NCBI RefSeq assembly: GCF_000744285.1
Contig: NZ_JQLQ01000002.1
Coordinates: forward strand, 558,001 to 622,000
Reading direction: 5' to 3'
Origin: Carnobacterium pleistocenium FTR1
Lineage (GTDB): Bacteria; Bacillota; Bacilli; Lactobacillales; Carnobacteriaceae
Length of the DNA: 64,000 nt
In this document: positions 26,090-63,465 of the stretch, piece by piece
Layout of the letters: the number at the start of each line of letters is the position of its first letter
How positions within the stretch are numbered: position 1 is the first letter of the stretch
Program-made: the position numbers and the translations under genes
Notes under the pieces: model-generated
Seen by the model: the letters and a program-made list of their open reading frames with translations, nothing else
Told to the model about the DNA's origin: nothing
Databases searched by the model: none

Positions 26090-26130
26090 GATATGTGTGA
26101 AGGCAATTGGTCCTCTAGTGTGAGCTATAC

Positions 26131-26400
26131 GAACTGGAGCTCGATTGATGAACTCAAACGGAAAAAGACTTTGAGTTGTATGAACTGGAGCTCGATTGAT
26201 GAACTCAAACGGAAAACGAATTTGAGTTGTATGAACTGGCACTTGTTTGATGAACTCAAACGGAAAACGAATTTGAGTTGCATGAACTGACACTTGTTTG
26301 ATGAACTCAAACGAAAAATGACTTTGAGTTGCACGAACTGAGGCTTGTTTGATGAACTCAAACAGAAAATGACTTTGAGCTGTACGAACTGAGGCTGGTT
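26131..26400. repeat. 51-bp tandem array of hairpin units
   Basis: GAACTG recurs at 26131, 26182, 26233, 26284, 26335 and 26386, an exact 51-bp period with five full units and a partial sixth. Every unit holds AACTCAAA and TTTGAGTT arms around an 11-base loop, so the RNA of either strand would fold into five successive hairpins. Linkers fall into pairs (GGAGCTCGATTG twice, CACTTGTTTG twice, GGCTTG). Because 51 is divisible by three, both strands carry short open frames with a 17-residue repeat, but no ribosome site supports translation. It lies just after the GGDEF gene. Confidence 0.9.
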
Positions 26401-47267: not shown

Positions 47268-47948
47268 GTGACCTTACCTGTAGAAAATGATTGGCTACCA
47301 ATTTTGCAAGAACAAATGCTTACATCCTCTTATCAGTCATTGAAACAATTCCTGGCACATGAGTATCAAGAAACGGTGGTTTATCCAGAAATGCATCATA
47401 TTTGGCAAGCCTTTGAATGGACTCCTTATCATGAAGTGAAAGTAGTGATTTTAGGACAAGATCCTTATCATGGACCGCATCAAGCTCATGGATTGAGTTT
47501 TTCTGTTTTACCAAATGTGAAAATTCCACCCTCATTAGTTAATATATATAAAGAATTAGAGAGTGATTTAGGGATACCTCCTGCAAACCATGGCTATTTG
47601 GAAGCTTGGGCTAAACAAGGTGTATTGTTGTTAAATACTGTTTTAACGGTTCAAAAAGGACAAGCTCACTCACATAAAGGGAAGGGATGGGAAGTGCTGA
47701 CGGATGCCGTTATTAAAAAATTGAGCGATCGAGACCAACCGATGGTATTTATTTTGTGGGGGACCCCTTCGATAAAGAAAAGAATATTGATCGATGAAAC
47801 CAAACATGTTGTGCTGACTTCTGTTCATCCAAGTCCTTTATCAGCTTATCGCGGCTTCTTTGGGTCAAAACCATTTTCTAGGGCGAATGAGGCGTTGACC
47901 CAGTTTGGAGAAACCCCCATTGACTGGAAATTGCCAGATTCTGTTTAA
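47268..47948 (+). CDS. ung: Uracil-DNA glycosylase
   Basis: A 226-residue family 1 enzyme that removes uracil from DNA. The catalytic water-activating motif GQDPYHG (Asp65, His68) and the second loop HPSPLSAYRG (His187) are intact, and length is normal. The start is GTG 47268 with AAGGAGGA 7 bases before. The last 121 bp from 47831 through three bases past the stop recur near-identically at 61000-61120, at the other end of the citrate locus. The gene itself is whole. Confidence 0.96.
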   Translation: MTLPVENDWLPILQEQMLTSSYQSLKQFLAHEYQETVVYPEMHHIWQAFEWTPYHEVKVVILGQDPYHGPHQAHGLSFSVLPNVKIPPSLVNIYKELESDLGIPPANHGYLEAWAKQGVLLLNTVLTVQKGQAHSHKGKGWEVLTDAVIKKLSDRDQPMVFILWGTPSIKKRILIDETKHVVLTSVHPSPLSAYRGFFGSKPFSRANEALTQFGETPIDWKLPDSV

Positions 47949-47951
47949 TAA
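47831..47951 (+). repeat. Left copy of the 121-bp direct repeat (ung 3' end)
   Basis: The final 39 codons of ung, its stop and three more bases match 61000-61120 in the same direction with one mismatch (T at 47838 against A at 61007). Similarity ends sharply on both sides. It is a candidate attachment or integration site (attL). Confidence 0.93.
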
Positions 47952-48008
47952 ATAAGATCAAATAGGATCTTTTCTGTAAAAAGTAATCCTGCAAGTATAA
48001 GTAAATTG

Positions 48009-48055
48009 AAAAAGATAAATGCAAAGTAATTTTCTTAATTTGTATTTATCTTTTT
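48009..48055. promoter_or_regulatory. 17-bp hairpin between ung and the GntR gene
   Basis: AAAAAGATAAATGCAAA and TTTGTATTTATCTTTTT pair with one G-T pair around 13 bases, followed by T residues. It may end ung transcripts. The half-site TTTGCATTTA recurs at 48058-48067, so TAAATGCAAA-type elements occur three times and may be sites of the adjacent GntR regulator. Confidence 0.6.
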
Positions 48056-48084
48056 AATTTGCATTTAAAGGTTTCAATTAAAGA

Positions 48085-48134
48085 TAGAATATAATTTTGT
48101 GGTGCTTTATAATAAAAGGAAGTAACCGTTTTAA
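48085..48134 (+). promoter_or_regulatory. Predicted promoter and cre-like site of the regulator gene
   Basis: TAGAAT and TATAAT (48108-48113) are 17 bases apart. Read on the minus strand, 48121-48134 is TTAAAACGGTTACT, which matches 12 of 14 positions of the CcpA site TGWAANCGNTNWCA. It lies at the start of the transcript. Confidence 0.45.
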
Positions 48135-48168
48135 AAATAAGGGAAATTAAAGCATTTGGGGGAGTACC

Positions 48169-48858
48169 ATGGAGGATTATATTGGAGAAATTATAAGATT
48201 TACAGATATGAAACAACATAAGACTTTAAATGAAATTGTTTTTGAAGGTATACGGAAGGCTATTATTAAAGGCATTCTTCCAATTGGGGAAAGAATTAAT
48301 GAAAAAGAATATGCTGAACGCATGAATATTAGTAGGACACCTATTAGAGAAGCCTTAAATCGATTAGAAAAAGAAGGACTCGTTGAATGTATCCCGCATT
48401 ATGGAGTTATCGTAAAAAAAATTACAATTGATGATGCTAAAGAAATCTATCAAATCCGTAAAGCATTAGATATTCTTGCAACTAAGAATGCAATGAAATT
48501 AATGACAAAAAAACAATTTGAAGAATTAAGAAATCTTTTAGAAGAAACAGAAAAATTAAATGAACAGAATGAAGATCTTGATGTAGTCATTAAATTGTTT
48601 TCCGAATTCAATGGAAAAATTTATCAATATAGTCACATGCCAAGGCTAACGAATATGGTAACTAAGTTGAGAGAATATTTAATGCGATTTAGGGATATTT
48701 CTTTAAGGGGAGAAGAACGTAGAAAAAAAGCTCTTAGTGAACATTGGATGATTTATCGCGCTATGTGTAACCAAGATGAAACACAGGTCAATATGATTAT
48801 TAAAGAACATTTAAGCTATTCTGAAAAATTTATTATAAAAGAAATGGAAAAACAATAA
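48169..48858 (+). CDS. citO: GntR/FCD transcriptional regulator of citrate genes
   Basis: A 229-residue regulator with an N-terminal winged helix (about 18-80; ISRTPIREALNRLEKEGLVE is the recognition region) and a C-terminal helical FCD ligand-binding domain. It resembles CitO of Enterococcus faecalis, which binds citrate and activates the cit operons. GGGGGAG precedes the ATG. citG follows by one base. Name given by context and family, not by direct comparison. Confidence 0.85.
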   Translation: MEDYIGEIIRFTDMKQHKTLNEIVFEGIRKAIIKGILPIGERINEKEYAERMNISRTPIREALNRLEKEGLVECIPHYGVIVKKITIDDAKEIYQIRKALDILATKNAMKLMTKKQFEELRNLLEETEKLNEQNEDLDVVIKLFSEFNGKIYQYSHMPRLTNMVTKLREYLMRFRDISLRGEERRKKALSEHWMIYRAMCNQDETQVNMIIKEHLSYSEKFIIKEMEKQ

Positions 48859-48859
48859 A

Positions 48860-49786
48860 ATGGAAAAAATACAAATGGATGCCTCTATTTCAAACAATAT
48901 AGAATTAAATCAGATAGCAATTCAACTAGCAAAGTATGCTCAGCAAGCAATACTTTATGAAGCGGTCCTTTCTCCAAAGCCAGGTCTAGTTGATGCAGTA
49001 GATAATGGGTCACACACAGATATGACTATTTATACTTTTTTAGATAGTTCTTCTAGTCTTTTTAAAGGATTTGTCCAGTTTGCTCAAATCGGACTTTCTT
49101 GGAAAAGCACATCAAAAGAATTATTAAAAGCGATACGTCCTGTTGGAGTAGAAGCTGAAAAGCAAATGTTTGAAGAAACAAATGGAATCAATACACATAA
49201 AGGAATCATTTTTTCAATGGGCTTATTTTTAGCTGCAGCAGGAAAAGTTTATCAGGAATCAAAAAAAAAGACTGATAAATTAGGAAGGTTTTCAGAACAA
49301 GATACAGATAAGATTTTTAAAGAGATTTTAAGAATGACAGTGGGACTAGTTTCGAATGATTTTAAAACTATAAAAGCCAAAAAAAAATTGACAAATGGAG
49401 AGAAATTGTATGTGGAATATGGAATAACAGGAATTCGAGGAGAAGCAGAGAATGGGTATCCCGTAGTAAGAAGGCTTGCTTTACCTCAATTAAGAAAAAC
49501 TAAGTGTGAAGAATCTACACAAGTACGCTTATTAGATGTCTTATATCAGCTGATGGCCTTCTCAGAAGACTCAAATATTTTACATCGTGCTGGAATAGAA
49601 GGATTAGAGTATGTACAGCAAGAAGCTGAAAAATTTATAAAAGATGGGTCTATGAAACAGATTAAAGCATTTGAAAGAGTTAGAAAAATGAACAAACAAT
49701 TTGTTAGTAAACAGATCAGCCCAGGCGGAAGTGCAGATTTACTTAGCGTAACATTATTTCTTGGGAAATTAGAGGGTATCATCTAG
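48860..49786 (+). CDS. citG: Triphosphoribosyl-dephospho-CoA synthase
   Basis: A 308-residue enzyme that makes 2'-(5''-triphosphoribosyl)-3'-dephospho-CoA from ATP and dephospho-CoA, the precursor of the citrate lyase prosthetic group. Family segments SPKPGLVDAVDNGSHTDM and GVEAEKQMFEETNGINTHKG are intact. The start is one base after the regulator's stop, so translation is coupled. CitX, encoded downstream, attaches the product to CitD. Confidence 0.93.
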   Translation: MEKIQMDASISNNIELNQIAIQLAKYAQQAILYEAVLSPKPGLVDAVDNGSHTDMTIYTFLDSSSSLFKGFVQFAQIGLSWKSTSKELLKAIRPVGVEAEKQMFEETNGINTHKGIIFSMGLFLAAAGKVYQESKKKTDKLGRFSEQDTDKIFKEILRMTVGLVSNDFKTIKAKKKLTNGEKLYVEYGITGIRGEAENGYPVVRRLALPQLRKTKCEESTQVRLLDVLYQLMAFSEDSNILHRAGIEGLEYVQQEAEKFIKDGSMKQIKAFERVRKMNKQFVSKQISPGGSADLLSVTLFLGKLEGII

Positions 49787-49817
49787 TAAGATTAACAAGG
49801 AGTTTTAAGTATAATTT

Positions 49818-49875
49818 AAAAGCCTCATTAAAATGATGAATTTCTAAATTCATTCATCATTTTAATGAGGCTTTT
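49818..49875 (+). terminator. Terminator after citG
   Basis: A perfect 24-bp stem begins AAAAGCCTCATTAAAATGAT and ends in TTTT. It separates the regulator unit from the main operon. Confidence 0.88.
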
Positions 49876-50033
49876 ATATGCTGAATTTCAGTATGAGTTA
49901 ATAATTATACACTATCTTATTTAAGATTAAAAGAAAAATTGAGGACTTTCAATGTACTTGTATTTCTTTTCGTGTGTATTGATTATTTATGCTGTGTTTC
50001 TGTTTTTTCTTGTGTGTATAGGCTAAAACGGAT

Positions 50034-50061
50034 TGTTGAAAGCGGTTAATTATACTATACT
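50034..50061 (+). promoter_or_regulatory. Promoter of the citrate operon with a cre-like site
   Basis: TTGTTG and TATACT boxes are 16 bases apart. TGAAAGCGGTTAAT at 50037-50050 matches 12 of 14 positions of the CcpA consensus and overlaps the -35 box and spacer, as expected for catabolite repression. The rest of 49880-50102 shows no gene. Confidence 0.6.
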
Positions 50062-50102
50062 TTTAATGTGATCACGTATAAAAATTAAAGGAGTGTATAA
50101 GG

Positions 50103-51419
50103 ATGATAACATTTTTTTCTTACGCTATGATAGTTGTTTTTATGTTTTTAATCATTAGAAAGAAATTAACACCATTTTCAGCATTAGTTTTGGTGCCAGT
50201 TATTTTTGGAGCTGTAGGAGCTATTTTTGGTATTTTCCCTAAATCAATTGGAGATATGGCATTACAAGGTATTCAAGATACTTCAACAACCGGAATTATG
50301 TTGTTATTTGCCATTTTATATTTTTCAATTATGTTAAATACTGGGTTGTTTGATCCAGTGACAAATTTTGTTATCCGAGTTTCTAAAGGAGATCCCGTAA
50401 AGATACTTATAGGGACTGCAATTGTTGCTGCAATGGTATCACTAAATGGTGATGGAACAACGACTACTTTAATAACTTGTACGGCCTTCCTTCCAATTTA
50501 CAAAAAACTAAATTTAAAAATTATGAATTTTGCTGTAATTGTTATTTTGATGAATACTATCATGAATCTTCTTCCTTGGGGAGGTCCTACTGCACGTGTA
50601 ATTGCTGTACTAGGAATTAATGAACAAGGTATTTTAAGAGCCCTTATGCCTGGAATGATCGCCGCAATCATTTATATGATCGGCGTTGCTTACTATATGG
50701 GACTTAAGGAACGAAAACGATTAGGTATTCAAGTAATGTCAGAAACAGAATTATTAGCTCTAACTACAACATCTACTCCTGAAGAAGAAGCATTGAAGCG
50801 TCCAGATAAAATTTGGATCAATGCTATTCTGACATTTGTACTTATTGCTATGCTAATGGCTGGAACGTTCCCTTCTGCAGTGTTGTTTTTAGTAGGAACA
50901 GTTTTAGCGCTAGTAATTAACTATAGAAGTTTAAAAGAACAAAAACAACGGATTCAAGTAAATGCTGGTGATGCAGTTCAAGTAGTTATTTTAGTATTGG
51001 CAGCTGGTATCTTCATGGGTATCTTTACAGGTACTGGAATGGCAGATGCCTTGGCATATAATTTAGCTACCATTATTCCAGAAAGCTGGGGGAATTATTG
51101 GGGATTGATTGTTGCTGTTATCTCAGCTCCGGGGACCTTCTTCTTATCAAATGATGCTTTTTACTTCGGTGTACTACCTATTCTAGCTGAAGCAGGAGCG
51201 AAATATGGATTTACAGTGCAAGAAATAGGAGTAGCTTCACTTCTAGGACAAGCATTCCATTTACTAAGTCCGCTGGTAGCCTTTATATACTTACTACTTA
51301 ATTTAACTGGATTAGAAATGGGAGGATGGCAAAAAGAATCAGCTAAGTGGGCAATTGGCATCTTCGTTATCTTTATCGTCGTATCTGGTGTTACAAGTGC
51401 AGTTCCTTTAATAAAATAA
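50103..51419 (+). CDS. CitMHS family citrate transporter
   Basis: A 438-residue membrane protein with about twelve helices, in the CitMHS family that takes up citrate complexed with a divalent metal plus protons. Family segments LNGDGTTTTLITCTAFLPIY and NLLPWGGPTARV are clear. GGAG precedes ATG 50103. It is first in the main operon, matching CitH of E. faecalis. Which metal (Ca2+, Mg2+ or others) cannot be told. Confidence 0.92.
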   Translation: MITFFSYAMIVVFMFLIIRKKLTPFSALVLVPVIFGAVGAIFGIFPKSIGDMALQGIQDTSTTGIMLLFAILYFSIMLNTGLFDPVTNFVIRVSKGDPVKILIGTAIVAAMVSLNGDGTTTTLITCTAFLPIYKKLNLKIMNFAVIVILMNTIMNLLPWGGPTARVIAVLGINEQGILRALMPGMIAAIIYMIGVAYYMGLKERKRLGIQVMSETELLALTTTSTPEEEALKRPDKIWINAILTFVLIAMLMAGTFPSAVLFLVGTVLALVINYRSLKEQKQRIQVNAGDAVQVVILVLAAGIFMGIFTGTGMADALAYNLATIIPESWGNYWGLIVAVISAPGTFFLSNDAFYFGVLPILAEAGAKYGFTVQEIGVASLLGQAFHLLSPLVAFIYLLLNLTGLEMGGWQKESAKWAIGIFVIFIVVSGVTSAVPLIK

Positions 51420-51513
51420 ACATGAAAAAAACAGTATAAACAGTAAAAAAAACGTAGCAGGTACGAAAACATAATACAATGAATGTATTAAGTAATAGAG
51501 TAGGAGGGTAGGG

Positions 51514-51732
51514 ATGGGATTCCTAAGTAGCATCAAAAAAATGTTTGACAAGCAGCCAGAAGAAGCAAATGCTAATTCAATTAATGTAAGAAATAATGAA
51601 GTTGCAGAATATACTGGACTACCAATGTCAAAAAAAGAAAAAGAAATAGTAGCTGTCATTTGTTCAGCAGGTGCAGCAAAAAATTATAAAGATAGTGAAT
51701 TTACAATTAAGAAAATAATAAAAACTAAATAA
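51514..51732 (+). CDS. oadH: OadH-like accessory subunit of oxaloacetate decarboxylase
   Basis: A 72-residue hydrophilic protein. The C-terminal half, SKKEKEIVAVICSAGAAKNYKDSEFTIKKI in nature, resembles the short conserved segment found at the end of OadG-like or OadH proteins (split here to avoid quoting more). It precedes oadD and oadB as OadH does in the E. faecalis cit cluster, where it is needed for the membrane complex. AGGAGGG precedes the ATG. Assignment rests on position, size and weak motif similarity. Confidence 0.65.
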   Translation: MGFLSSIKKMFDKQPEEANANSINVRNNEVAEYTGLPMSKKEKEIVAVICSAGAAKNYKDSEFTIKKIIKTK

Positions 51733-51752
51733 TAAGAAATGAGGCTACATAA

Positions 51753-52136
51753 ATGTTGAGAAAATTTAAAATAAACATTAACGATAAATCTTATGATGTA
51801 GAAATGGAAGAAATGGGAACTCCGCAACAAAATTTAGATACAGCATCAGCGCCACAAATTAACACTATGCCAGCAAGCTCAGCAGTAGCTACATTAGCAC
51901 CAACTTCTACAAATTTTGGAGAAGGAGAGCCTACCCTAGCTCCAATGCCAGGAACAATTATTGATATACGAGTAAAAGTTGGAGATCAAATCGTAGAAAA
52001 TCAAGTATTACTAGTGTTAGAAGCTATGAAAATGGAAAATGAAATTGTGGCAACAAAGAGCGGAACCGTTGCAGCTTTACATGTAATAAAAGGAGAAGCA
52101 ATTGATGTAGGAAACCCTATGATAACAATTGTTTAA
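51753..52136 (+). CDS. oadD: Biotin carrier subunit of oxaloacetate decarboxylase
   Basis: A 127-residue biotinyl carrier. The C-terminal lipoyl-like domain holds the biotinylation site EAMKME, with Lys93, after an Ala/Pro/Thr-rich linker at about 28-60. It carries CO2 from OadA to OadB. It follows oadH by 20 bp and precedes oadB by 15 bp. A stand-alone carrier explains why OadA below lacks its own biotin domain. Confidence 0.92.
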   Translation: MLRKFKININDKSYDVEMEEMGTPQQNLDTASAPQINTMPASSAVATLAPTSTNFGEGEPTLAPMPGTIIDIRVKVGDQIVENQVLLVLEAMKMENEIVATKSGTVAALHVIKGEAIDVGNPMITIV

Positions 52137-52151
52137 TAGAGGAGCGATAAA

Positions 52152-53273
52152 ATGGACACGTTATTAGCAGGTATTACATCTATTACATTTGGACAAATCG
52201 TTATGATGGCCATTGGTGGTCTACTGATGTACTTAGGAATAAGAAAAGAATATGAGCCAACTCTTTTAGTCCCAATGGGATTAGGAGCAATCTTAGTAAA
52301 TTTCCCTGGATCTGGATTAGTTACTCAGGTTTCAAATGGAATAGAGACAGAAGGAGTACTAGACTTACTATTTGATTTCGGTATCTCAACTGAACTGTTT
52401 CCCTTACTAATTTTTATTGGAATTGGAGCAATGATTGATTTTGGTCCGCTTTTACAAAAACCATTTATGTTTTTATTTGGTGCTGCAGCACAATTCGGTA
52501 TCTTCTTCACTATTATAGTAGCTGTTTTATTTGGATTTAATTTAGAACAAGCTGCATCTATTGGTGTTATCGGTGCTGCGGATGGTCCAACATCTATCTT
52601 TGTTGCAAACCAACTAGCACCGGATTTAATTGGCCCTATTACGATTGCTGCCTATTCTTACATGGCTTTAGTTCCAATCATTCAACCTATAGCTATTAAA
52701 GCAGTGACCACAAAAAAAGAACGACAAATACGAATGGAATATAAAGCTGAAAGTGTATCAAGAATGACGAAAATAGTCTTTCCATTAGTAGTAATAGTAA
52801 TATCAGGTTTGATTGCTCCAGTATCCTTACCTTTAGTTGGATTTCTAATGTTTGGGAATCTTCTTAGAGAATGTGGCGTATTAAATCGATTAAGTCAAAC
52901 CGCACAAAATGAATTAGTAAATCTAGTTTCTATTCTATTAGGTTTAACAATTGCATCAAAAATGACTGCTGATCAGTTTTTAAATATCCAAACGCTAATG
53001 ATTATTGCATTTGGACTAGTAGCATTTGTGATGGATACGATTGGAGGAGTATTATTCGCAAAATTATTAAATGTATTTAGAAAAGAAAAAATTAATCCAA
53101 TGATTGGTGGTGCGGGAATTTCCGCATTTCCAATGTCAAGTCGCGTAGTTCAAAAAATGGCAACACAAGAAGATCCACAAAACTTTATCTTGATGTACTC
53201 TGTTGGAGCAAATGTATCAGGTCAAATAGCATCTGTTGTTGCTGGAGGACTTATTTTATCTTTCTTTGGATAA
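52152..53273 (+). CDS. oadB: Oxaloacetate decarboxylase Na+ pump, beta subunit
   Basis: A 373-residue membrane protein that decarboxylates carboxybiotin and exports Na+. The conserved AADGPTSIF segment holds Asp144, the counterpart of the ion-binding aspartate of the family, and GANVSGQIAS near the C-terminus holds Asn354. About nine helices are visible. GGAGCG precedes the ATG. It is the membrane core of the complex encoded here. Confidence 0.93.
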   Translation: MDTLLAGITSITFGQIVMMAIGGLLMYLGIRKEYEPTLLVPMGLGAILVNFPGSGLVTQVSNGIETEGVLDLLFDFGISTELFPLLIFIGIGAMIDFGPLLQKPFMFLFGAAAQFGIFFTIIVAVLFGFNLEQAASIGVIGAADGPTSIFVANQLAPDLIGPITIAAYSYMALVPIIQPIAIKAVTTKKERQIRMEYKAESVSRMTKIVFPLVVIVISGLIAPVSLPLVGFLMFGNLLRECGVLNRLSQTAQNELVNLVSILLGLTIASKMTADQFLNIQTLMIIAFGLVAFVMDTIGGVLFAKLLNVFRKEKINPMIGGAGISAFPMSSRVVQKMATQEDPQNFILMYSVGANVSGQIASVVAGGLILSFFG

Positions 53274-53282
53274 ATAGACAAA

Positions 53283-53314
53283 TGGTAAATAAGAGAAAAA
53301 AATGGTATTTACCA
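53283..53314 (+). promoter_or_regulatory. Intercistronic inverted repeat after oadB
   Basis: TGGTAAATA and TATTTACCA are perfect 9-bp arms around 14 bases. Without a T run it is more likely an mRNA-processing or stability hairpin than a terminator. Confidence 0.4.
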
Positions 53315-53336
53315 AAAGAAAAGAGGTTTGAAAGTT

Positions 53337-53471
53337 ATGTTATTCGATAATCCCCTAATTGTGCAAGCATTTGAAGTTATGGCTTTTGGTATGGGTGGAA
53401 CCTTCTTTGTTTTATTCATATTGTATTTGGCCAGTCTGTTATTATTAAAAATATTTCCAGCTAAAAAATAA
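53337..53471 (+). CDS. oadG: OadG-like gamma subunit, short
   Basis: A 44-residue protein too short for usual ORF thresholds. It has a single membrane helix (about 17-39) containing GMGGTFFVLFILYLASLLLL and a basic end (KIFPAKK), the layout of the membrane anchor of sodium-pump decarboxylase gamma subunits, though these are usually about 80 residues. AAAGAGG precedes the ATG by about 10 bases. It lies between oadB and citC in the operon, with no competing frame. The family call is an inference from topology and context. Confidence 0.62.
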   Translation: MLFDNPLIVQAFEVMAFGMGGTFFVLFILYLASLLLLKIFPAKK

Positions 53472-53518
53472 GATTTAAAATGAATAGTTCTTTTATGCTA
53501 GAAAGTAGGCAAGTGATA

Positions 53519-54556
53519 ATGTCCTATCAAGTAAGGCAATTGCTTATCAAACGTAATGAAAAAGATTACGAAAAATGGGGAAATTTCCTTATTCATGCAG
53601 ATATTCGTCCAGAAAAGAATGTCGATTACACAGTTGGGTTATTTGATGGAGATGAATTGATTGCAACTGGATCAACAGCAAAAAATGTTTTAAAATGCAT
53701 CGCCATTTGTAAAAAATATACAGGTGGTGGAGTTATTAATCAAATGGTTTCACATTTGATAAATGTTATTTTTGAAAATGGCGAATCAACTTGTTATGTC
53801 TACACTAAGCCAGAGTCTAAACAATCCTTTGAATATTTAGGTTTTAAAGAGTTAGCACGTGTTCCTGATGAATTAGTATTTATGGAAAAAGCTGTTTTTG
53901 GTTTTCAAGATTATTTGTTGAAGTTGCAAAGCCAAAAAAGAGAAGGGAAAAGGATAGCCGGCATCGTAATGAACGCTAACCCTTTTACGAAGGGGCATTT
54001 GTATTTAATTGAGAAGGCCGCACAAGAGAATGATGTGGTTCACTTGTTTGTCTTATCAGAGAATATTTCGGATTTTCCAACCCCAGTTCGAATAAAACTT
54101 GTTCAAGAGGGTGTAGTACATTTGGAAAATGTTTTTGTCCAGGAAACTGGAAACTATATGGTGTCGGCTGCAACTTTCCCTTCATATTTTTTAAAAGAAA
54201 AAAGTTCTGTCACAAAAATACAAGCAACCTTAGATGCCATTATCTTCAAAGATTCGATTGCTCCAATGCTAAATATCCATTATCGCTATGCGGGAGAGGA
54301 GCCTTTTTCTGTGGCAACTAATCTTTATAATGAAGCGATGAGAGAAGTCTTTGCGGATAAAATAAAACTTATTATTTTACCGCGAAAAAAGATAGAAGAT
54401 GAAGTGATCAGTGCATCGAGAGTAAGACGATTACTGGTGGAAGACAACCTGAAAGCAATTGAAAAACTCGTTCCAAAAAGTACTTTTAATTATCTAGTAT
54501 CAGAAGAAGGCAAAAAAATACAGGAAAAAATAAAGAAAAGGAGTGATTTTTTATGA
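53519..54556 (+). CDS. citC: Citrate lyase ligase
   Basis: A 345-residue enzyme that acetylates the prosthetic group of citrate lyase using ATP and acetate, switching the lyase on. An N-terminal GNAT-like region (about 1-125) is followed by a nucleotidyltransferase domain with the motif NPFTKGHLYLIEKA and the late segment ISASRVRRLL. Upstream ATG 53480 is in frame, but AAGTAGG lies 9 bases before ATG 53519 and family length favours it. It overlaps citD by 4 bp. Confidence 0.92.
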   Translation: MSYQVRQLLIKRNEKDYEKWGNFLIHADIRPEKNVDYTVGLFDGDELIATGSTAKNVLKCIAICKKYTGGGVINQMVSHLINVIFENGESTCYVYTKPESKQSFEYLGFKELARVPDELVFMEKAVFGFQDYLLKLQSQKREGKRIAGIVMNANPFTKGHLYLIEKAAQENDVVHLFVLSENISDFPTPVRIKLVQEGVVHLENVFVQETGNYMVSAATFPSYFLKEKSSVTKIQATLDAIIFKDSIAPMLNIHYRYAGEEPFSVATNLYNEAMREVFADKIKLIILPRKKIEDEVISASRVRRLLVEDNLKAIEKLVPKSTFNYLVSEEGKKIQEKIKKRSDFL

Positions 54557-54870
54557 CTTTACAAATTTCAAAACAGGCTATTGCCGGAACGTTAGAATCT
54601 TCAGATCTTCAAATTATTATTGATCAAAATGTTGGCAATGGTATTGATATTGAACTAAATAGCAGTGTCAAGAAACAATATGGCAAACAAATTGAAGCAG
54701 TAATTAAAGAAACGTTAGCAAATTTAGGCATAACAGAGGCTAAATTAGTTGTTGAAGATAGAGGGTCCTTGGATTGTACTGTCATCGCTCGAACAATTGC
54801 AGTAGTTCATCGCTCTTCTGGTATAACAGAAAATTATGACTGGGAGGGAATTGAAAAATGGAACGTTTAA
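54553..54870 (+). CDS. citD: Citrate lyase acyl carrier (gamma) subunit
   Basis: A 105-residue acyl carrier protein of citrate lyase. The prosthetic group attaches to a serine in AIAGTLESSD, at residue 16 or 17, the same place as in other CitD proteins. The start overlaps the citC stop (ATGA) and the end overlaps the citE start by 13 bp, which points to tight translational coupling and subunit balance. Confidence 0.95.
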   Translation: MTLQISKQAIAGTLESSDLQIIIDQNVGNGIDIELNSSVKKQYGKQIEAVIKETLANLGITEAKLVVEDRGSLDCTVIARTIAVVHRSSGITENYDWEGIEKWNV

Positions 54871-55745
54871 GAAGAACAATGATGTTCGTCCCTGCAAGTA
54901 ATGCTGGAATGTTGAAAGATGCTAATATCTATGGTGCGGATTCAATTATGTTCGATTTAGAAGATGCTATTTCACTTAAAGAAAAAGATACTTCACGTTT
55001 TCTTGTTTACCAAGCCGTTAAAACATTAGATTTTGAGGGAACAGAGACAGTAGTAAGAATTAATGCTCTAGATGCAGGCGGAAAAGATGATATTCACGCG
55101 TTAATTCGTGCTGGAATAGATGTTATTCGTTTGCCTAAGACAGAAACTGCTCAAGATATTATTGATGTTGAAAAAGTAATCGAAGAAGCAGAAAGACAAT
55201 GCAATCGAAAAATTGGCTCCACTAAAATGATGGCTGCCATAGAGAGTGCCACAGGGGTTTTGAATGCTCCAGCTATTGCTCTCTCAAGTAAAAGATTGAT
55301 TGGAATTGCGTTGGGTGCCGAAGATTATGTAACAAATATGCACACAAAACGCTATCCAGATGGTCATGAACTACATTTTGCAAGAAGCATGATTCTTCAT
55401 GCAGCCCGAAATGCTGGAATTGCAGCTATTGATACAGTCTATTCAGATGTTGAAAATGAAGAAGGCTTACGTAATGAAGTTGAATTGATCAAACAATTAG
55501 GGTTCGATGGAAAATCAGTGATCAATCCTCGTCAAATTCCAATCGTAGATGCGGTATTTTCACCGACAAATAAAGAAATTGAAAATGCAAAAAATGTGCT
55601 TTATGCAATTGAAGAAGCTGAAAGTAAAGGCTCCGGAGTTATTGCTTTAAATGGAAAAATGATTGATAAACCAGTTGTAGAAAGAGCTCAAAGAGTCTTG
55701 ATGTTAGCAGAAGCTGCTGGTTTATACAGAAAGGGAGACAAATAA
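54858..55745 (+). CDS. citE: Citrate lyase beta subunit
   Basis: A 295-residue TIM-barrel lyase that splits citryl-carrier to acetyl-carrier and oxaloacetate. The metal-binding segments FDLEDAIS, RLPKTE and GAEDYVTNM are present. The start lies inside citD, preceded by GGAGGGA. Length is typical. It works with CitD and CitF in a large cytoplasmic complex. Confidence 0.95.
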   Translation: MERLRRTMMFVPASNAGMLKDANIYGADSIMFDLEDAISLKEKDTSRFLVYQAVKTLDFEGTETVVRINALDAGGKDDIHALIRAGIDVIRLPKTETAQDIIDVEKVIEEAERQCNRKIGSTKMMAAIESATGVLNAPAIALSSKRLIGIALGAEDYVTNMHTKRYPDGHELHFARSMILHAARNAGIAAIDTVYSDVENEEGLRNEVELIKQLGFDGKSVINPRQIPIVDAVFSPTNKEIENAKNVLYAIEEAESKGSGVIALNGKMIDKPVVERAQRVLMLAEAAGLYRKGDK

Positions 55746-55746
55746 C

Positions 55747-57285
55747 ATGGTTGAGAATAAAGTTGGAAGAGAAATACCAAAAGAATTCGTTGATCAATAT
55801 GGTGTATTTGAAGGTGCCCAGGCTAGAAAACTATCTTATCAAAGGGCTGCAGCAAAAGTAACTGCTGGACAAATAGGAGCTAAAAAAATGGTTTCTTCTG
55901 TTCGTGAAGCTATTGAAAAAAGTGGTTTGAAATCTGGCATGACTATTTCTTTCCATCATCATTTTAGAGAAGGCGATTATGTCATGAACATGATTATGGA
56001 TGAAATCGCAGAGATGGGCATCAAGGATCTTTCTATCGCACCAAGTTCGATTGCAAATGTTCATGAACCATTGATTAAGCACATTAAAAATGGAGTAGTG
56101 ACAGCTATCACATCCAGTGGTTTAAGAGATAAATTAGGCGCAGAAATTTCAAAAGGAATAATGAAAAAACCTGTGATTATTCGTTCACATGGCGGCCGTG
56201 CAAGAGCTATAGAAACGGGCGATATTCATATTGATGTTGCTTTCATCGGAGCACCAAGTTCGGATGAATACGGGAACGTAAACGGTTCTCACGGAAAAGC
56301 GACTTGCGGTTCTCTAGGATATGCAAAAGTAGACGCAAAATATGCGGATAAAGTTGTTGTGATCACAGATTCTTTGGTTCCTTATCCAAATACTCCAATC
56401 AGTATCCCACAAACAGATGTTGATATTGTAGTAGAAGTAGAAGCTATTGGAGATCCAGAGGGGATTGCTAAAGGAGCAACCCGATTTACTAAAAATCCAA
56501 AAGAATTATTAATTGCAGAATATGCAAGTAAGGTCATCATTAATTCGCCTTATTTCAAAGAAGGCTTTTCATTCCAAACGGGAACAGGCGGATCTTCACT
56601 AGCAGTTGCTAGCTATCTAAAAGAAAGCATGATAAAAAAAAGTATCAAAGCTAGTTACGTTTTGGGTGGAATTACACAACAAATGGTGGAATTACTAGAA
56701 GAAGGTTTAGTTGGAAAAATTATCGATGTGCAAAGTTTCGATAAAGGATCCGGTGTTTCACTAAAAAATAATGCAAACCATTATGAAATTGATGCTTCGA
56801 TGTATGCCTCTCCATCTTCGAAGTCAGCTTTTGTTAACAATATTGATGTCGCTATTCTTTCTGCTCTGGAAATCGATACAGATTTCAATGTAAATGTATT
56901 GACAGGTTCTGATGGTATGATCCGAGGAGCATCTGGTGGACATTGTGATACGGCAGCAGGTTCAAAACTAAGTATCATCGTCGCCCCTCTTATTCGTGGA
57001 AGAATTACAACTGTTGTTGATAAAGTAAACACGGTCATTACTCCAGGAGAAAGTATTGATGTCGTTGTTACGGAAATTGGTATTTGCATAAATCCATTGC
57101 GACAAGATTTAATTGAACAGTTTAAAAATTTGTCAATTCCTCAATTTACGATAGAGGAATTAAAAGAAAAAGCATATGTAATCGCTGGTAAACCTGAAGA
57201 CATTGAATACGAAGAAGATGTTGTGGTAGTCGTTGAATACCGTGATGGTAGTATTATTGATGTAGTTCGTAAAATTAAAGAATAG
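55747..57285 (+). CDS. citF: Citrate lyase alpha subunit
   Basis: A 512-residue acyl-transferase subunit that swaps the acetyl group on the carrier for citrate. The CoA-transferase-like fold is indicated by GTGGSSLAVASYL and the C-terminal SGGHCDTAAGSKL segment. Length is normal for CitF. It starts one base after citE. Confidence 0.95.
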   Translation: MVENKVGREIPKEFVDQYGVFEGAQARKLSYQRAAAKVTAGQIGAKKMVSSVREAIEKSGLKSGMTISFHHHFREGDYVMNMIMDEIAEMGIKDLSIAPSSIANVHEPLIKHIKNGVVTAITSSGLRDKLGAEISKGIMKKPVIIRSHGGRARAIETGDIHIDVAFIGAPSSDEYGNVNGSHGKATCGSLGYAKVDAKYADKVVVITDSLVPYPNTPISIPQTDVDIVVEVEAIGDPEGIAKGATRFTKNPKELLIAEYASKVIINSPYFKEGFSFQTGTGGSSLAVASYLKESMIKKSIKASYVLGGITQQMVELLEEGLVGKIIDVQSFDKGSGVSLKNNANHYEIDASMYASPSSKSAFVNNIDVAILSALEIDTDFNVNVLTGSDGMIRGASGGHCDTAAGSKLSIIVAPLIRGRITTVVDKVNTVITPGESIDVVVTEIGICINPLRQDLIEQFKNLSIPQFTIEELKEKAYVIAGKPEDIEYEEDVVVVVEYRDGSIIDVVRKIKE

Positions 57286-57313
57286 AATGACCTATGAACA
57301 GAGGAGAAGTATG

Positions 57314-57865
57314 ATGAATGAAAATTTATTTCTAGAAGGATCTGTACCTTCCCTTGAAGAAGTTTTACAAACTCGTGAAAATCGAGCAAAACTTGAACAA
57401 CAGCTTGTAAAGAAATTTGCTATGCCTCTTATTGCTTTTAAGCTAAACATTCCCGGCCCAGTTAAAAATAATGCTACTATCAAACGCATTTTTGAAGAAG
57501 GTTGTAACCAACTGCAAGAAGAATTGAAAAAGCTGAATAAGCCCATTTTATATGAAAAAAAATTAGATTTAAATACTGGGCCAGAGTATTTTTGTGTACA
57601 AGGTAAAATAGAAGATGCCTTTAGTTTGAAAAAAATGGCAGTAGCATTAGAAGAAAAAGGATTGGGACGTATTTATGATATCGATATTTTACGCAATAAC
57701 GGTGGTCAAGCGGTATCTATTCAACGTACAGAACTTGAAATTCCAGTAAGAAAATGTTTTATTTGCGCTACCGAAGCTAAAGATTGTAGTCGAAATAGAA
57801 CCCACAGCGTTTTAGACTTGCAGCTTAAGCTAACGGAAATTGTAAATGAAGAGATAGGGATGTGA
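57314..57865 (+). CDS. citX: Holo-citrate lyase synthase
   Basis: A 183-residue enzyme that transfers the prosthetic group made by CitG to a serine of CitD. The family segments GLGRIYDIDIL and RKCFICATEAKDCSRNRTHS are clear. ATG codons at 57311 and 57314 are both possible, and GAGGAG favours the second. An extension to 57287 lacks a ribosome site. It follows citF by 28 bp. Confidence 0.92.
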   Translation: MNENLFLEGSVPSLEEVLQTRENRAKLEQQLVKKFAMPLIAFKLNIPGPVKNNATIKRIFEEGCNQLQEELKKLNKPILYEKKLDLNTGPEYFCVQGKIEDAFSLKKMAVALEEKGLGRIYDIDILRNNGGQAVSIQRTELEIPVRKCFICATEAKDCSRNRTHSVLDLQLKLTEIVNEEIGM

Positions 57866-57871
57866 AAAGCT

Positions 57872-59257
57872 GTGACCAAAAAAGTAAAATTTATGGAAAC
57901 CATTCTTCGAGATGCACATCAAAGTTTAATTGCTACAAGAATGTCTACAGAAGAAATGTTACCAATTTTAAAAACGCTAGATGAAGCCGGTTATGAATCC
58001 TTAGAGGTCTGGGGGGGTGCAACCTTTGATGCTAGCTTACGTTACTTAAACGAAGATCCATGGGAAAGATTAAGAGCTATTCGCAAAGAAGTTAAAAATA
58101 CGAAGTTACAAATGTTACTAAGAGGTCAAAACTTATTAGGTTATAAACATTATGCAGATGATGTAGTAGAAGCTTTCATCGAAAAAGCATTAGCAAATGG
58201 GATTGACACTATCAGAGTTTTTGATGCATTAAATGATATTAGAAACCTGGAAACAGCGATAAAATCAATTAGGAAATTTGGTGGACATTGTCAAGCAGCG
58301 ATTTGTTATACGACAAGTGAAGTTCATACGGTTAGCTATTACGTTAATTTAGTAAAAGAAATGGAGGAGTTAGGAGCCCAATCCATTTGTATTAAAGATA
58401 TGGCGGGTATTTTAACACCAAATAATGCCTATGAACTCATTAAAGCTCTAAAAGACATTACGGCATTGCCGATAGAAGTGCATACTCATGCAACAAGTGG
58501 GATTTCAGAAATGACTTATTTGAAATCGGTAGAAGCAGGGGCAGATATTATTGATACTGCTATTTCCCCATTTGCTGGAGGAACAAGCCAACCGTCTACT
58601 GAATCTATGTCCATTGCTTTAGAGGGAATAGGTTATGAAACAGGATTGAACATTGAAAAACTAAAAGAAATCGCGGATTACTTTAGACCAATCAAAGACA
58701 AATATTTGCAAAACGAAGTGCTTAATCCTAAGGTGTTAGCTACTGAGCCTAATACACTTTTGTACCAAGTTCCGGGTGGAATGTTATCTAATTTGTTGTC
58801 ACAGATGAAAGAAGCGCATGCAGAAGACAAATATGAAGAAGTCCTTAGAGAAGTGCCAAGAGTCAGAGCTGATTTGGGTTATCCCCCTTTGGTAACACCT
58901 ATGTCTCAAATGGTCGGAACACAAGCCTTTATGAATGTTTTAAATGGCGAACGGTATAAAATGATTCCGAAAGAAATTAAAGATTACGTCAAAGGATCAT
59001 ACGGTCAATCGCCTGTTCCTATAGCAGAAGAGATCAGACACAAAATAATTGGTGAGGAAAAAACTCTATCTGGACGTCCAGCTGATTTAATTAAACCAGA
59101 AATGGAAAAATATCGTGAAGAATTAGGTGATTTAGCTGAATCGACCGAAGATGTTCTAATGTATGCTTTATTTCCACAACTAGCAGAAACTTATTTAAAG
59201 AAACGTAAGGATCCGTTTTATGATATCCCAGTACAAACTGTTGCGGTAACAATGTAG
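57872..59257 (+). CDS. oadA: Oxaloacetate decarboxylase alpha subunit
   Basis: A 461-residue carboxyltransferase that moves CO2 from oxaloacetate to biotin, leaving pyruvate. The metal ligands are visible as Asp14 (RDAHQSL) and His204/His206 (VHTHATSG), and the RGQNLLGY substrate loop is intact. The usual C-terminal biotin domain is absent. OadD supplies it. The start is GTG 57872, six bases after the citX stop, with a weak ribosome site. It is the last gene of the main operon before a terminator. Confidence 0.94.
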   Translation: MTKKVKFMETILRDAHQSLIATRMSTEEMLPILKTLDEAGYESLEVWGGATFDASLRYLNEDPWERLRAIRKEVKNTKLQMLLRGQNLLGYKHYADDVVEAFIEKALANGIDTIRVFDALNDIRNLETAIKSIRKFGGHCQAAICYTTSEVHTVSYYVNLVKEMEELGAQSICIKDMAGILTPNNAYELIKALKDITALPIEVHTHATSGISEMTYLKSVEAGADIIDTAISPFAGGTSQPSTESMSIALEGIGYETGLNIEKLKEIADYFRPIKDKYLQNEVLNPKVLATEPNTLLYQVPGGMLSNLLSQMKEAHAEDKYEEVLREVPRVRADLGYPPLVTPMSQMVGTQAFMNVLNGERYKMIPKEIKDYVKGSYGQSPVPIAEEIRHKIIGEEKTLSGRPADLIKPEMEKYREELGDLAESTEDVLMYALFPQLAETYLKKRKDPFYDIPVQTVAVTM

Positions 59258-59351
59258 AGGTTAATAGATAAAAATAAACAAAAAAAGGATTGAATCGAAG
59301 TAACCAACTTAGAAAAGTCAACAATTTTTAGCTTCTTGTTTCACGTTTAGA

Positions 59352-59409
59352 AAAGAGAAAGCAGACTGATTTAGTTAATTCTTATAACAGTCGCTTTCTC
59401 TCTTTTTTT
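59352..59409 (+). terminator. Terminator after oadA
   Basis: AGAGAAAGCAGACTG pairs with CAGTCGCTTTCTCT (one bulge), then seven T residues. The following 59410-59581 is AT-rich with no feature I can support. Confidence 0.85.
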
Positions 59410-59581
59410 CTTGTAATAAGCTTTTTATGTTGCCATCAAGTATCAGATTGCAAACTTTATAAACTGAGCTAAAAAATCCAACAAAACTAAAGTAAAGATC
59501 TGCTTTATTAAGACAGTTTAGCAAAATAAGCGATAAATATTATTTTACCTAACTATCTTCTAAGAAAGTGTGTTGAAAACG

Positions 59582-60943
59582 ATGGAAACAACAGGTTATG
59601 CTAAAAGAGATCAAAAAAGAATCGTAACAGAACGTACGAAATATCTCTTTATCTTGTTTTTTACAATCTCAATGTTTGGTAGCGCTTTTTTGTTCAATAC
59701 ACCAAAAGAAATTCGAGATGGTAGCATTAAAATTCTTTTTTCTCCTGCTAATTTAGTGACAGATTATTTTGCTTTAGCTAATGTAGGAGCTGCCCTAGTC
59801 AATGCTTCATTAATGACTTTGAAAAGTTTATTTATCATTCGAAGGTCTCGATTATCTCTTTCGGGACCAATAGTTGCAGCTCTATTTACCATCGTTGGCT
59901 TTTCTTTATTTGGTAAAAATTTATATAATTCAATTCCAATCATTTTAGGGGTTCTTTTGTACGCAAAAGTTACTCAAACACCTTTTAAAAATTACTTGCT
60001 TTCAGCTTTATTTGGGACTGCACTAGCTCCATTAGTGAGTGAAGTTTCTTTTAATGTAGGGTTAACTCTACCCCTAGGGATGGTTTTAGGTTGCTTGTCG
60101 GGACTATTCATCGGATTTATTCTTCCACCTTTATCTCGTCATTTTATTAGTTTCCATAAAGGGTTTAGCTTGTACAATATTGGGTTCACAGCTGGTATTA
60201 TTGGGATGGCTTTTATAGCTGTTTTAAGAGCTTATGGAATTGAAGTCAATGTAGTAAATTTGATTTCCAATGGGAACAATAAAAACTTTTCCTTTTTTCT
60301 TTATCCTCTATTCTCTTTTATGTTTTTTCTTGGAGTCTATTTCAATAATGGCAGTTTCAAAGGGTATAGGAAGTTTTTAGATGAAACTGGTATTGGAGGT
60401 ACCGACTTTATAAAGAAGTATGGATTTGGATTGACTCTCATCAATATGGCTCTTTTAGGATTGATCTCTACTAGTTTTTCTCTTTTAGTTGGAGGAGAAT
60501 TAAATGGACCTGTCCTTGGAGGTCTATTTACTGTTGTAGGTTTTGGAGCGTATGGAAAACATATAAAAAATGTTCCACCAATTTTAGTGGGTATTTTTAT
60601 AGTTGGCTCATTTACGTCAGTCGAACTCTCATCCACAGCTTTTCTTTTAACCGCTCTTTTTGGAACAACATTAGCCCCTATTAGTGGTTACTATGGAACT
60701 TTTGCTGGTATCTTGGCAGGTGGTCTCCATATGGCAATGGCTGCAAATATTACCAATTTACATGCTGGAATGAATCTATATAATAATGGTTTCTCAGGGG
60801 GATTCATTGCAGCAATCTTAGTACCCTTACTAGAAGTGTTCCATTTTCACAAAAAGGAACGAGAAAATAAAAAAATGATTGAGCCACTCATTGACACAGA
60901 AGTTATAGATGATTTGAATCAGTCTGAGCGACGACAGCTTTAG
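59582..60943 (+). CDS. DUF1576 membrane protein
   Basis: A 453-residue membrane protein of the DUF1576 family with about twelve helices. The two halves are clearly repeated: GPIVAALFTIVGFSLFGKN and GPVLGGLFTVVGFGAYGKH, then LLSALFGTALAPLVS and LLTALFGTTLAPISG, then FSLYNIGFTAG and MNLYNNGFSGG. This inverted- or tandem-repeat layout is common in transporters. GTG 59570 and TTG 59573 are in frame, and ATG 59582 was preferred. It lies inside the citrate island behind its own start region, so a transport role for citrate, acetate or a related acid is a guess. Confidence 0.8.
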   Translation: METTGYAKRDQKRIVTERTKYLFILFFTISMFGSAFLFNTPKEIRDGSIKILFSPANLVTDYFALANVGAALVNASLMTLKSLFIIRRSRLSLSGPIVAALFTIVGFSLFGKNLYNSIPIILGVLLYAKVTQTPFKNYLLSALFGTALAPLVSEVSFNVGLTLPLGMVLGCLSGLFIGFILPPLSRHFISFHKGFSLYNIGFTAGIIGMAFIAVLRAYGIEVNVVNLISNGNNKNFSFFLYPLFSFMFFLGVYFNNGSFKGYRKFLDETGIGGTDFIKKYGFGLTLINMALLGLISTSFSLLVGGELNGPVLGGLFTVVGFGAYGKHIKNVPPILVGIFIVGSFTSVELSSTAFLLTALFGTTLAPISGYYGTFAGILAGGLHMAMAANITNLHAGMNLYNNGFSGGFIAAILVPLLEVFHFHKKERENKKMIEPLIDTEVIDDLNQSERRQL

Positions 60944-60999
60944 ACGAAAAAAGAAGAATGATATATATAAATAAGCATATTTCTAATATTGATTTATTA

Positions 61000-61120
61000 A
61001 AGTCCTATATCAGCTTATCGCGGCTTCTTTGGGTCAAAACCATTTTCTAGGGCGAATGAGGCGTTGACCCAGTTTGGAGAAACCCCCATTGACTGGAAAT
61101 TGCCAGATTCTGTTTAATAA
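61000..61120 (+). pseudogene. Right copy of the 121-bp direct repeat (ung fragment)
   Basis: A truncated copy of the final 39 codons of ung plus stop, matching 47831-47951 with one mismatch that changes Leu to Ile. There is no start codon or 5' part. It marks the right end of the citrate island (candidate attR). The 52 bp up to 61172 show no further similarity. Confidence 0.93.
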
Positions 61121-61148
61121 GCCCTTATAGGCGATGGGTCCAAAAGAC

Positions 61149-61175
61149 TGTCATTTCTAAGCAAATAATAGTATG
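61149..61175 (+). promoter_or_regulatory. Predicted pta promoter
   Basis: A TGTCAT box is followed after 17-18 bases by TATGAT, in the short space between the ung fragment and pta, so pta may still be transcribed. Confidence 0.4.
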
Positions 61176-61220
61176 ATGGGAAAGGATATAAAAAAAACAA
61201 AATTTGTGGAGGTAGTTAAC

Positions 61221-62015
61221 GTGGAAAATATTGAAATTATTGATCCAGCTAACTATGATAAATTAGATGAAATGGTTGCTTCTTTTGTAGAACGTCGCAA
61301 AGGAAAAGTAACAGAAGAAAAAGCCATTGAATTATTAAAAGATGAAAATTATTTTGGTACAATGTTAACTTATATGGGATTAGTTGATGGTTTGGTAAGT
61401 GGATCGGTCCACTCAACAGGAGAAACAGTTCGTCCTGCATTGCAAATCATTAAAACAAAACCGGGCATTAGCCGTACAAGTGGTGCATTTATCATGATGC
61501 GTGGCCGTGGAAAAGAAAGATACTTATTCTCAGATTGTGCAATCAATGTAAATCCAAATGCTCAAGAATTAGCTGAAATTGCTGTAGAAAGTGCTAAAAC
61601 AGCAGAAATGTTTGGCATTGAACCAAAAGTTGCTATGTTAAGCTTTTCAACTAGAGGATCTGCGGTTGCTGAAGAAGCTACTAAAGTTGCAGAAGCAACT
61701 AAAATTGCACAAGAATTAGCTCCTCAATACGAAATTGATGGCGAAATGCAATTTGATGCTGCATTTGTAGCTTCTGTTGCTGAACAAAAAGCACCAGGTT
61801 CAAAAGTTGCTGGACAAGCAAGTGTATTTGTTTTCCCTGAATTGCAATCAGGAAATATTGGCTACAAAATTGCTCAACGTTTTGGTAACTTTGAAGCTAT
61901 TGGACCAATTTTGCAAGGATTAAACAAACCGATTTCTGATTTATCACGTGGATGTAATGAAGAAGATGTCTACAAATTAGCAATCATTACAGCTAATCAA
62001 ACATTAATGGACTAA
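61221..62015 (+). CDS. pta: Phosphate acetyltransferase, N-terminally truncated
   Basis: The protein matches phosphate acetyltransferase (acetyl-CoA plus phosphate to acetyl phosphate) from about residue 67 of full-length enzymes onward: DPANYDKLDEMV, FVERRKGK, NYFGTMLTYMGL, VRPALQIIKTKPG, DLSRGCNEEDVY. The usual first 60 or so residues are missing. The total is 264 from GTG 61221, or 280 from ATG 61173, against about 325 normally. GGAGG lies 8 bases before GTG 61221, so a shortened protein could be made, but the first strand-helix units are lost and activity is doubtful. No pta-like sequence is seen in other frames upstream. It adjoins the island's right end. Confidence 0.88.
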   Translation: MENIEIIDPANYDKLDEMVASFVERRKGKVTEEKAIELLKDENYFGTMLTYMGLVDGLVSGSVHSTGETVRPALQIIKTKPGISRTSGAFIMMRGRGKERYLFSDCAINVNPNAQELAEIAVESAKTAEMFGIEPKVAMLSFSTRGSAVAEEATKVAEATKIAQELAPQYEIDGEMQFDAAFVASVAEQKAPGSKVAGQASVFVFPELQSGNIGYKIAQRFGNFEAIGPILQGLNKPISDLSRGCNEEDVYKLAIITANQTLMD

Positions 62016-63375: not shown

Positions 63376-63465
63376 AACTGTTTTTGTCGTACTTCATAGA
63401 ATTTTGTTTGGCTATTTTTAAATACTTGAATTACAATAAAACATAAATGAGTAGAGGAGTATGAC

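Follow-up and report, generated by a model that had tools for sequence, protein, structure and literature searches.

The 64,000-nt stretch of the Carnobacterium pleistocenium FTR1 genome analyzed here (contig NZ_JQLQ01000002.1, positions 558,001 to 622,000; hereafter the window) carries a citrate fermentation island of 13 genes at the stop codon of ung, enclosed by two near-identical copies of the 3' end of that gene. The island was most probably gained horizontally: citrate genes are patchy in the family, the best relatives of the cluster are distant, and the insertion site is empty in the congeners. For its mode of entry we favor a recent insertion at the ung stop by a single crossover of a circle that carried this lineage's own ung end, a reading to which we assign about an even chance of being correct.

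The two repeat copies are in direct orientation, are 121 bp long, agree at 120 of 121 positions and lie 13,169 bp apart from start to start. Their sole mismatch is the eighth base (T at 47838, A at 61007), which leaves 7 identical bases before it and 113 after it; an exact 113-bp pair in 64 kb is expected by chance only about 1e-54 times. The initial annotation, made from the sequence without database searches, had reported this pair with its single mismatch, and both the coordinates and the mismatch were reproduced. It had, however, counted the last 39 codons of ung in the repeat, whereas the coordinates of the open reading frame (ORF) give the last 38 whole sense codons, the stop codon and an additional TAA. 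A search of the whole genome (four contigs, 2.66 Mb) with ung DNA gives two matches, the full-length gene and this fragment, and the product of the full-length gene shares 85–90% amino acid identity with those of the five congeners.

The genus group comprises six genomes, the window's own and five congeners. None of the five congeners has a citE match, and in every one of them a short spacer separates the ung stop from a 326-codon pta, with a single ung end in each genome. The DNA flanking the island is collinear with that of the congeners, in blocks (of at least 500 bp) at 76–91% identity; the left repeat copy extends the native ung and the right copy extends a spacer that aligns in all five. 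With the site empty in the congeners, and with each copy continuous on its outer side with native DNA (ung at the left, the spacer at the right), the locus has in sum undergone an insertion and a duplication of the ung end. This agrees with the initial annotation, which had proposed that a 13-kb block entered at the 3' end of ung, leaving the gene whole at one side and a fragment of it at the other, and had named relatives with one ung end and an intact pta as the check; all five congeners are of that kind, and all are without a citE match. In a tree of the ung body (31 rows; the family genomes G014 and G015 were dropped, their ung having been missed by the motif filter) the window falls inside the genus (support 100/99) and groups there with the congener G001 (100/99), so that a single gain is simpler than several exact losses.

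The sequence of the repeat bears on where and when the duplicate arose. The congeners equal the left copy at 88–94 of the 121 positions and the right copy at 87–93; because the two copies match each other at 120 of 121 positions and the congeners at merely 87–94, the comparison points to a duplicate made in this lineage. Over codons 209–226, the last 54 bases compared, the congeners differ from the window at 16–22 of 54 positions and the two copies are identical; had an element brought in its ung end from a different species, the two copies would be expected to disagree in this segment. The one mismatch of the repeat lies in the right copy, and the base of the left copy is kept in five of five congeners. 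Judged from these alignments, the duplicate seems to be the lineage's own sequence and the event recent, unless gene conversion has evened the copies.

All 13 genes between the repeat copies lie on the + strand, as expected from the one-direction citrate locus first described here. They include citCDEFX, citG, CitMHS, oadA, oadB, a biotin carrier and a GntR regulator, all present together, and the set would make up a full pathway, starting with the uptake of citrate and ending at pyruvate and acetate, via citrate lyase and a Na+-pumping oxaloacetate decarboxylase. A family could be assigned to 12 of the 13 (small overlapping ORFs lay outside the scan), and family-profile scans gave no match to a recombinase or transposase family among the 13 genes, which bears out the earlier remark that no recombinase lies inside. 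The G+C content per 1-kb step is 0.29–0.39 within the island and 0.33–0.37 in the neighboring steps.

Both citE and the ung tail were followed through 395 genomes of the Lactobacillales. Matches to citE are present in 122 of these and in four of 18 genomes of the family, the window's own being counted in both. The ung tail is matched in 111 of the 395 genomes (E 0.001; no more than two candidate places were scored in any genome), and a second tail copy occurs in one of the 111, the window's own genome. Both lists share 49 genomes: in 25 the two features lie on different contigs, and among the 23 remaining besides the window's own the closest pairs of citE and ung tail are 48–49 kb apart (G187, G083). 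Eighty citrate loci were fetched, extending from citE by as much as 10 kb in either direction (less in some); an ung match was found in none of the 80, and pta lies about 10 kb from the citE start in two (L038, L043).

None of the relatives examined covers all of the island genes by itself. A Schnuerera locus (L015) is the closest by score for six of them (citO 74%, citG 56%, CitMHS 75%, citD 79%, citF 77% and citX 57%), and its strand layout, with citO, citG and CitMHS alongside citCDEFX, is that of the window. Matches to citO, citG and CitMHS together were found in 53 of the 80 loci; in 42 all three are opposite to the strand of citE, and in two (L015 and L055) they are on the same strand, as in the window. 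The Schnuerera locus (20.9 kb) has no oadB match, and its oadA match extends over only 31 residues. CitE is closest, at 83%, to those of G012 and Pisciglobus, both from other genera, oadB to those in Enterococcus and Trichococcus loci (83%) and oadA to that of Jeotgalibaca (75%). As no single relative covers every gene, the donor would lie outside the sampled genomes, and the cluster may be a mosaic. A near-identical direct-repeat pair was seen only in the window among 84 stretches (83 with citrate clusters, some genomes being represented twice, and 20 kb of the window). Separately, direct repeats of 80–85% identity were noted in five other citrate stretches (L027, L035, L037, L060 and L068); those of the Enterococcus citrate loci are about 8–11 kb apart (L035, 6816-18007; L037, 6539-17919; L027, 634-11451).

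In the reading that we favor, a circular DNA would have carried the citrate cluster together with a copy of this lineage's ung end, and one crossover within the 121-bp shared segment, made by RecA or by a recombinase acting from elsewhere, would have integrated the circle. The product would be a whole ung on the left and a start-less tail on the right, ahead of the native ung–pta spacer. The same repeats are then predicted to let the 13,169-bp unit loop out and so restore the empty site. That the 13.2-kb citrate module is a mobile unit free of any recombinase, which leaves and re-enters at ung by RecA recombination with a core gene as attachment site that is whole either way, is a further step that we regard as doubtful.

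Several results weigh against entry by such a circle. The acquisition of a piece of this lineage's ung by the circle has no explanation, and searches of plasmids, phages and viral contigs brought up no circle bearing this ung end: at the thresholds used the ung tail was unmatched in plasmid and phage records, and the viral contigs were free of an exact word from the tail or the left junction. The island, likewise, is without a near match in the plasmid collection. The congeneric comparison is limited to one genome per species. Within the repeated segment, the window is 73–77% identical in nucleotides to the five congeners and 76% to G206, which belongs to another family; for codons 61–188 the values are 80–91% and 70%, respectively. 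Identity to G001, which is 94% in the preceding block, falls to 74% within the repeat, and the approximately unbiased (AU) test gave p values of 0.357 for the genus as one clade and 0.3 for the window with G001. The ung tail may thus have been brought in from outside the genus as part of the island, with gene conversion evening the copies afterwards. In finer blocks the drop in identity falls in the last 54 bases compared, where G001 itself has changed, with six unique changes in G001 and the same number in the window.

Three kinds of vehicle or target were considered and rejected. A vehicle among the plasmids and phages of the collections was set aside on the searches just described; CitF relatives do occur on plasmids (89 records at E 1e-50, 52 of them Enterococcus), none above 80% identity. 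A tRNA or other RNA-gene target was rejected, the window having no tRNA, tmRNA or Rfam match. Transposon ends were rejected because the inner ends of the island, compared over 217 and 49 bp, have no common word of more than 7 bp in direct or inverted orientation, and 20 shuffles of the inverted comparison gave longest words of 6–13.

Direct repeats at the 3' end of a gene that is itself kept whole are the usual anatomy of site-specific elements, and the alternative that survives best starts from this likeness. The island would be a decayed element that had used the 3' end of ung: its repeats would be attL and attR, and its integrase would have been lost or would act from another locus; we judge this unlikely, if still a serious contender. 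Elements of this kind, decayed ICEs or IMEs termed cis-mobilizable elements (CIMEs), have been described as lacking integration and transfer genes and retaining attL and attR in the account consulted (PMC5704250). Tyrosine recombinase matches number 11 in the genome, and an ung tail that weakly resembles those of other families would fit a gene end borne by an element. None of the 11 matches, however, lies in the window, the nearest being about 31 kb past the right copy, and the genome has no match to the serine recombinase family PF07508. The identity of 120/121 spans the whole segment, including the 54-base end in which the congeners differ at 16–22 positions, and the one second tail among the 111 genomes is the window's own. 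The initial annotation had likened the entry to that of islands at tRNA 3' ends; with no recombinase recognized in the island, no second tail in another genome of the list and no match to the tail in plasmid, phage or viral records, the analogy to recombinase-mediated entry is left unsupported. Two of the tyrosine recombinase genes, one on the main and one on a smaller contig (G000:C2:1411122-1411682 and G000:C3:6892-7452), have equal scores and equal frame lengths of 392 aa, and are perhaps one element present twice.

Near-equal copies with no need for a mobility gene would also be accounted for by duplication in situ, in which linear citrate DNA was joined beside ung during illegitimate repair or transformation and the ung end was copied by repair synthesis, a single step producing a target duplication of great length. 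Small duplications without flanking repeats have been recorded in transformed pneumococci, according to the portion of the report available to us (PMC3784515). In the literature consulted, however, no case is reported of an insertion this clean in which some 120 bp were duplicated, and the inner ends of the island share no word beyond the length obtained with shuffled sequence; we hold this route to be improbable.

Recombination from repeat to repeat would yield precisely the empty site observed, and the island might on that ground be ancestral in the genus and have been lost exactly, in this manner, from five congeners. Multiple losses would then be needed, with the window nested in the genus beside G001; copies of such age should differ at more than 1 of 121 positions unless converted; and the remaining three citE loci of the family are not adjacent to ung, all of which makes an ancestral island very improbable. 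An assembly artefact, with the fragment or the junction absent from the cell, is scarcely credible: the observation comes from a single genome with uninspected sequencing reads, but both copies lie within one 2.6-Mb contig, have unlike flanks and differ at one base, and the right copy runs into a spacer alignable to five congeners.

Table 1. Coordinates of ung, the citrate island and pta in the window
Feature	Position	Strand	Remarks
ung	47268..47948	+	226 aa, full length, left side of insertion; from ORF list and congener identity
Left repeat copy	47831..47951	+	38 codons and stop of ung, and TAA
Island left inner end	47952..48168	+	Spacer between ung and regulator gene; a single weak match (50 bp) in 83 citrate stretches
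citO-like GntR/FCD regulator	48169..48858	+	Pfam GntR and FCD; 74% aa identity to Schnuerera L015
citG	48860..49786	+	TIGR03125 above cut-off
Inverted repeat	49814..49879		28-nt arms; after citG
CitMHS citrate transporter	50103..51419	+	TIGR00784 above cut-off
72-aa protein	51514..51732	+	Sits where oadH is expected; no Pfam match
Biotin carrier	51753..52136	+	Biotin_lipoyl match; no NCBIfam model above its cut-off
oadB, Na+-pumping decarboxylase beta subunit	52152..53273	+	TIGR01109 above cut-off
citC, citrate lyase ligase	53480..54556	+	Family match
citD, citrate lyase acyl carrier protein	54553..54870	+	PF06857
citE, citrate lyase beta	54858..55745	+	TIGR01588 above cut-off
citF, citrate lyase alpha	55747..57285	+	TIGR01584 above cut-off
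citX	57287..57865	+	Family match
oadA, oxaloacetate decarboxylase alpha	57872..59257	+	NF008985 above cut-off
DUF1576 protein	59570..60943	+	Family match; last gene of citrate locus
Right repeat copy	61000..61120	+	ung fragment without start
Native ung–pta spacer	61121..61220	+	Aligns with 5 congeners; promoter-like site 61148-61177; GGAGG ahead of pta start
pta	61221..62015	+	62 codons (186 bp) missing in frame behind GTG-GAA; 264 aa vs 326

Some of the assignments in Table 1 call for comment. The regulator gene is presumably citO, and the gene of the 72-aa protein is one that we take to be oadH from its position and from general knowledge of such loci. The biotin carrier probably belongs to the oxaloacetate decarboxylase. 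The inverted repeat after citG is a probable terminator, although the terminator scan did not list it. Promoter-like sites in the ung–pta spacer are no more frequent than in shuffled sequence. A relative of the DUF1576 protein occurs in just one of the 83 other citrate stretches, that of Streptococcus merionis (L028), where it is 37% identical and precedes oadA; the protein may have a role in citrate use.

Beyond the right copy, pta has lost 62 codons after its second codon, all of which are present in five of five congeners, and has retained its start and the preceding GGAGG; the initial annotation does not mention this truncation. This deletion is a second event, outside the insertion. The BLAST blocks on either side of it have 6 (G001) to 21 (G004 and G005) bases in common at the deletion point, and a short imperfect direct repeat may therefore have served in its formation. 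The gene is the sole PTA_PTB match in the genome, and the match begins at profile position 45. As the protein of the congeners can be aligned almost end to end with phosphotransacetylases of solved structure (e.g. 1td9), the deleted part falls within the N-terminal region of the enzyme, and the 264-aa Pta is, as far as its sequence can tell, likely inactive. In the remaining 262 codons the window has three synonymous and three non-synonymous unique changes (11 and 7 in G001); the rest of the gene is thus not accelerated, which means either that the deletion is of recent date or that the 264-aa protein is still maintained. A connection between the deletion and citrate use is speculation.

Farther to the right, one congener (G002) is an exception to the common arrangement, in that its tsaE stretch lies about 6.3 kb further along than in the others. 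There, about 6.3 kb separates the stretches that match window positions 63439 and 63443 (L102, about 10.8–17.1 kb, in a reversed locus), and nothing of that size is present in the other four congeners. Elsewhere in the window, a tandem array with a 51-bp unit occupies 26047-26400 (five overlapping 150-nt registers, 63–85% identical to the reference copy) and follows directly on an ORF that we read, from its frame and without a search, as a candidate diguanylate cyclase. A 52-bp array also occurs near the citrate loci of L107 (18636-19112) and L012; it is probably one array.

Citrate islands are already known from other bacteria. In Klebsiella pneumoniae, a 13-kb citrate fermentation island that is either present or absent, without known mobility sequence, has been described (PMC2735749). 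In the account consulted, that island resembles the present one in size class, function and presence or absence between two genes; it differs in that no direct repeat is reported there and the island-free strain has a 155-bp non-coding sequence, whereas here the end of a core gene is duplicated over 121 bp. Closer to the present case, clusters of citrate pathway 1 are patchy in Carnobacterium maltaromaticum and occur in one C. pleistocenium strain (PMC8537297). These share with the window the patchy distribution and the genes for CitO, CitMHS, oxaloacetate decarboxylase and citrate lyase, and the account consulted makes no mention of an insertion site or flanking repeat (PMC8537297). The CitE encoded by a C. 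maltaromaticum copy (L090) is 72% identical to that of the window.

With CIMEs the island shares cargo between direct repeats at a gene 3' end and an interior free of recombinase; it differs in the length of the repeat, 121 bp against the 8–60 bp given as usual for tyrosine recombinase elements in the part of the review consulted (PMC5704250), in the absence of a related ung element among those searched for, and in having no mobility gene among its 13. A lead for citrate clusters in circular form comes from Streptococcus equi, in which the circular 15,805-bp record NZ_CP134539.1 (L144, 1-15805) holds a citrate cluster and an IS3 transposase gene. Two adjacent AbrB-family annotations run across the start of the record, and no replication gene is annotated, which is no proof of absence because the PLSDB gene table is incomplete. 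The record could represent a circle that had been excised, or else an artificial product of assembling a locus with flanking repeats. Its likeness to the proposed intermediate is a citrate cluster as a circle, and the difference is that it contains an IS3 transposase gene instead of a host gene end.

Operons often appear to have moved between species by a vehicle that is no longer visible. No description of this ung junction was found in the titles and abstract beginnings of the open-licence literature on ung island targets and citrate islands. Set against the known citrate islands, a long clean duplication without a mobility gene is unusual. Here a single pathway, an empty site in five of five congeners and a long near-identical scar occur together, which makes the route of insertion directly testable; should it be true that the repeats alone permit loss and re-entry, they would give metabolic operons a simple way of moving that needs no mobility genes.

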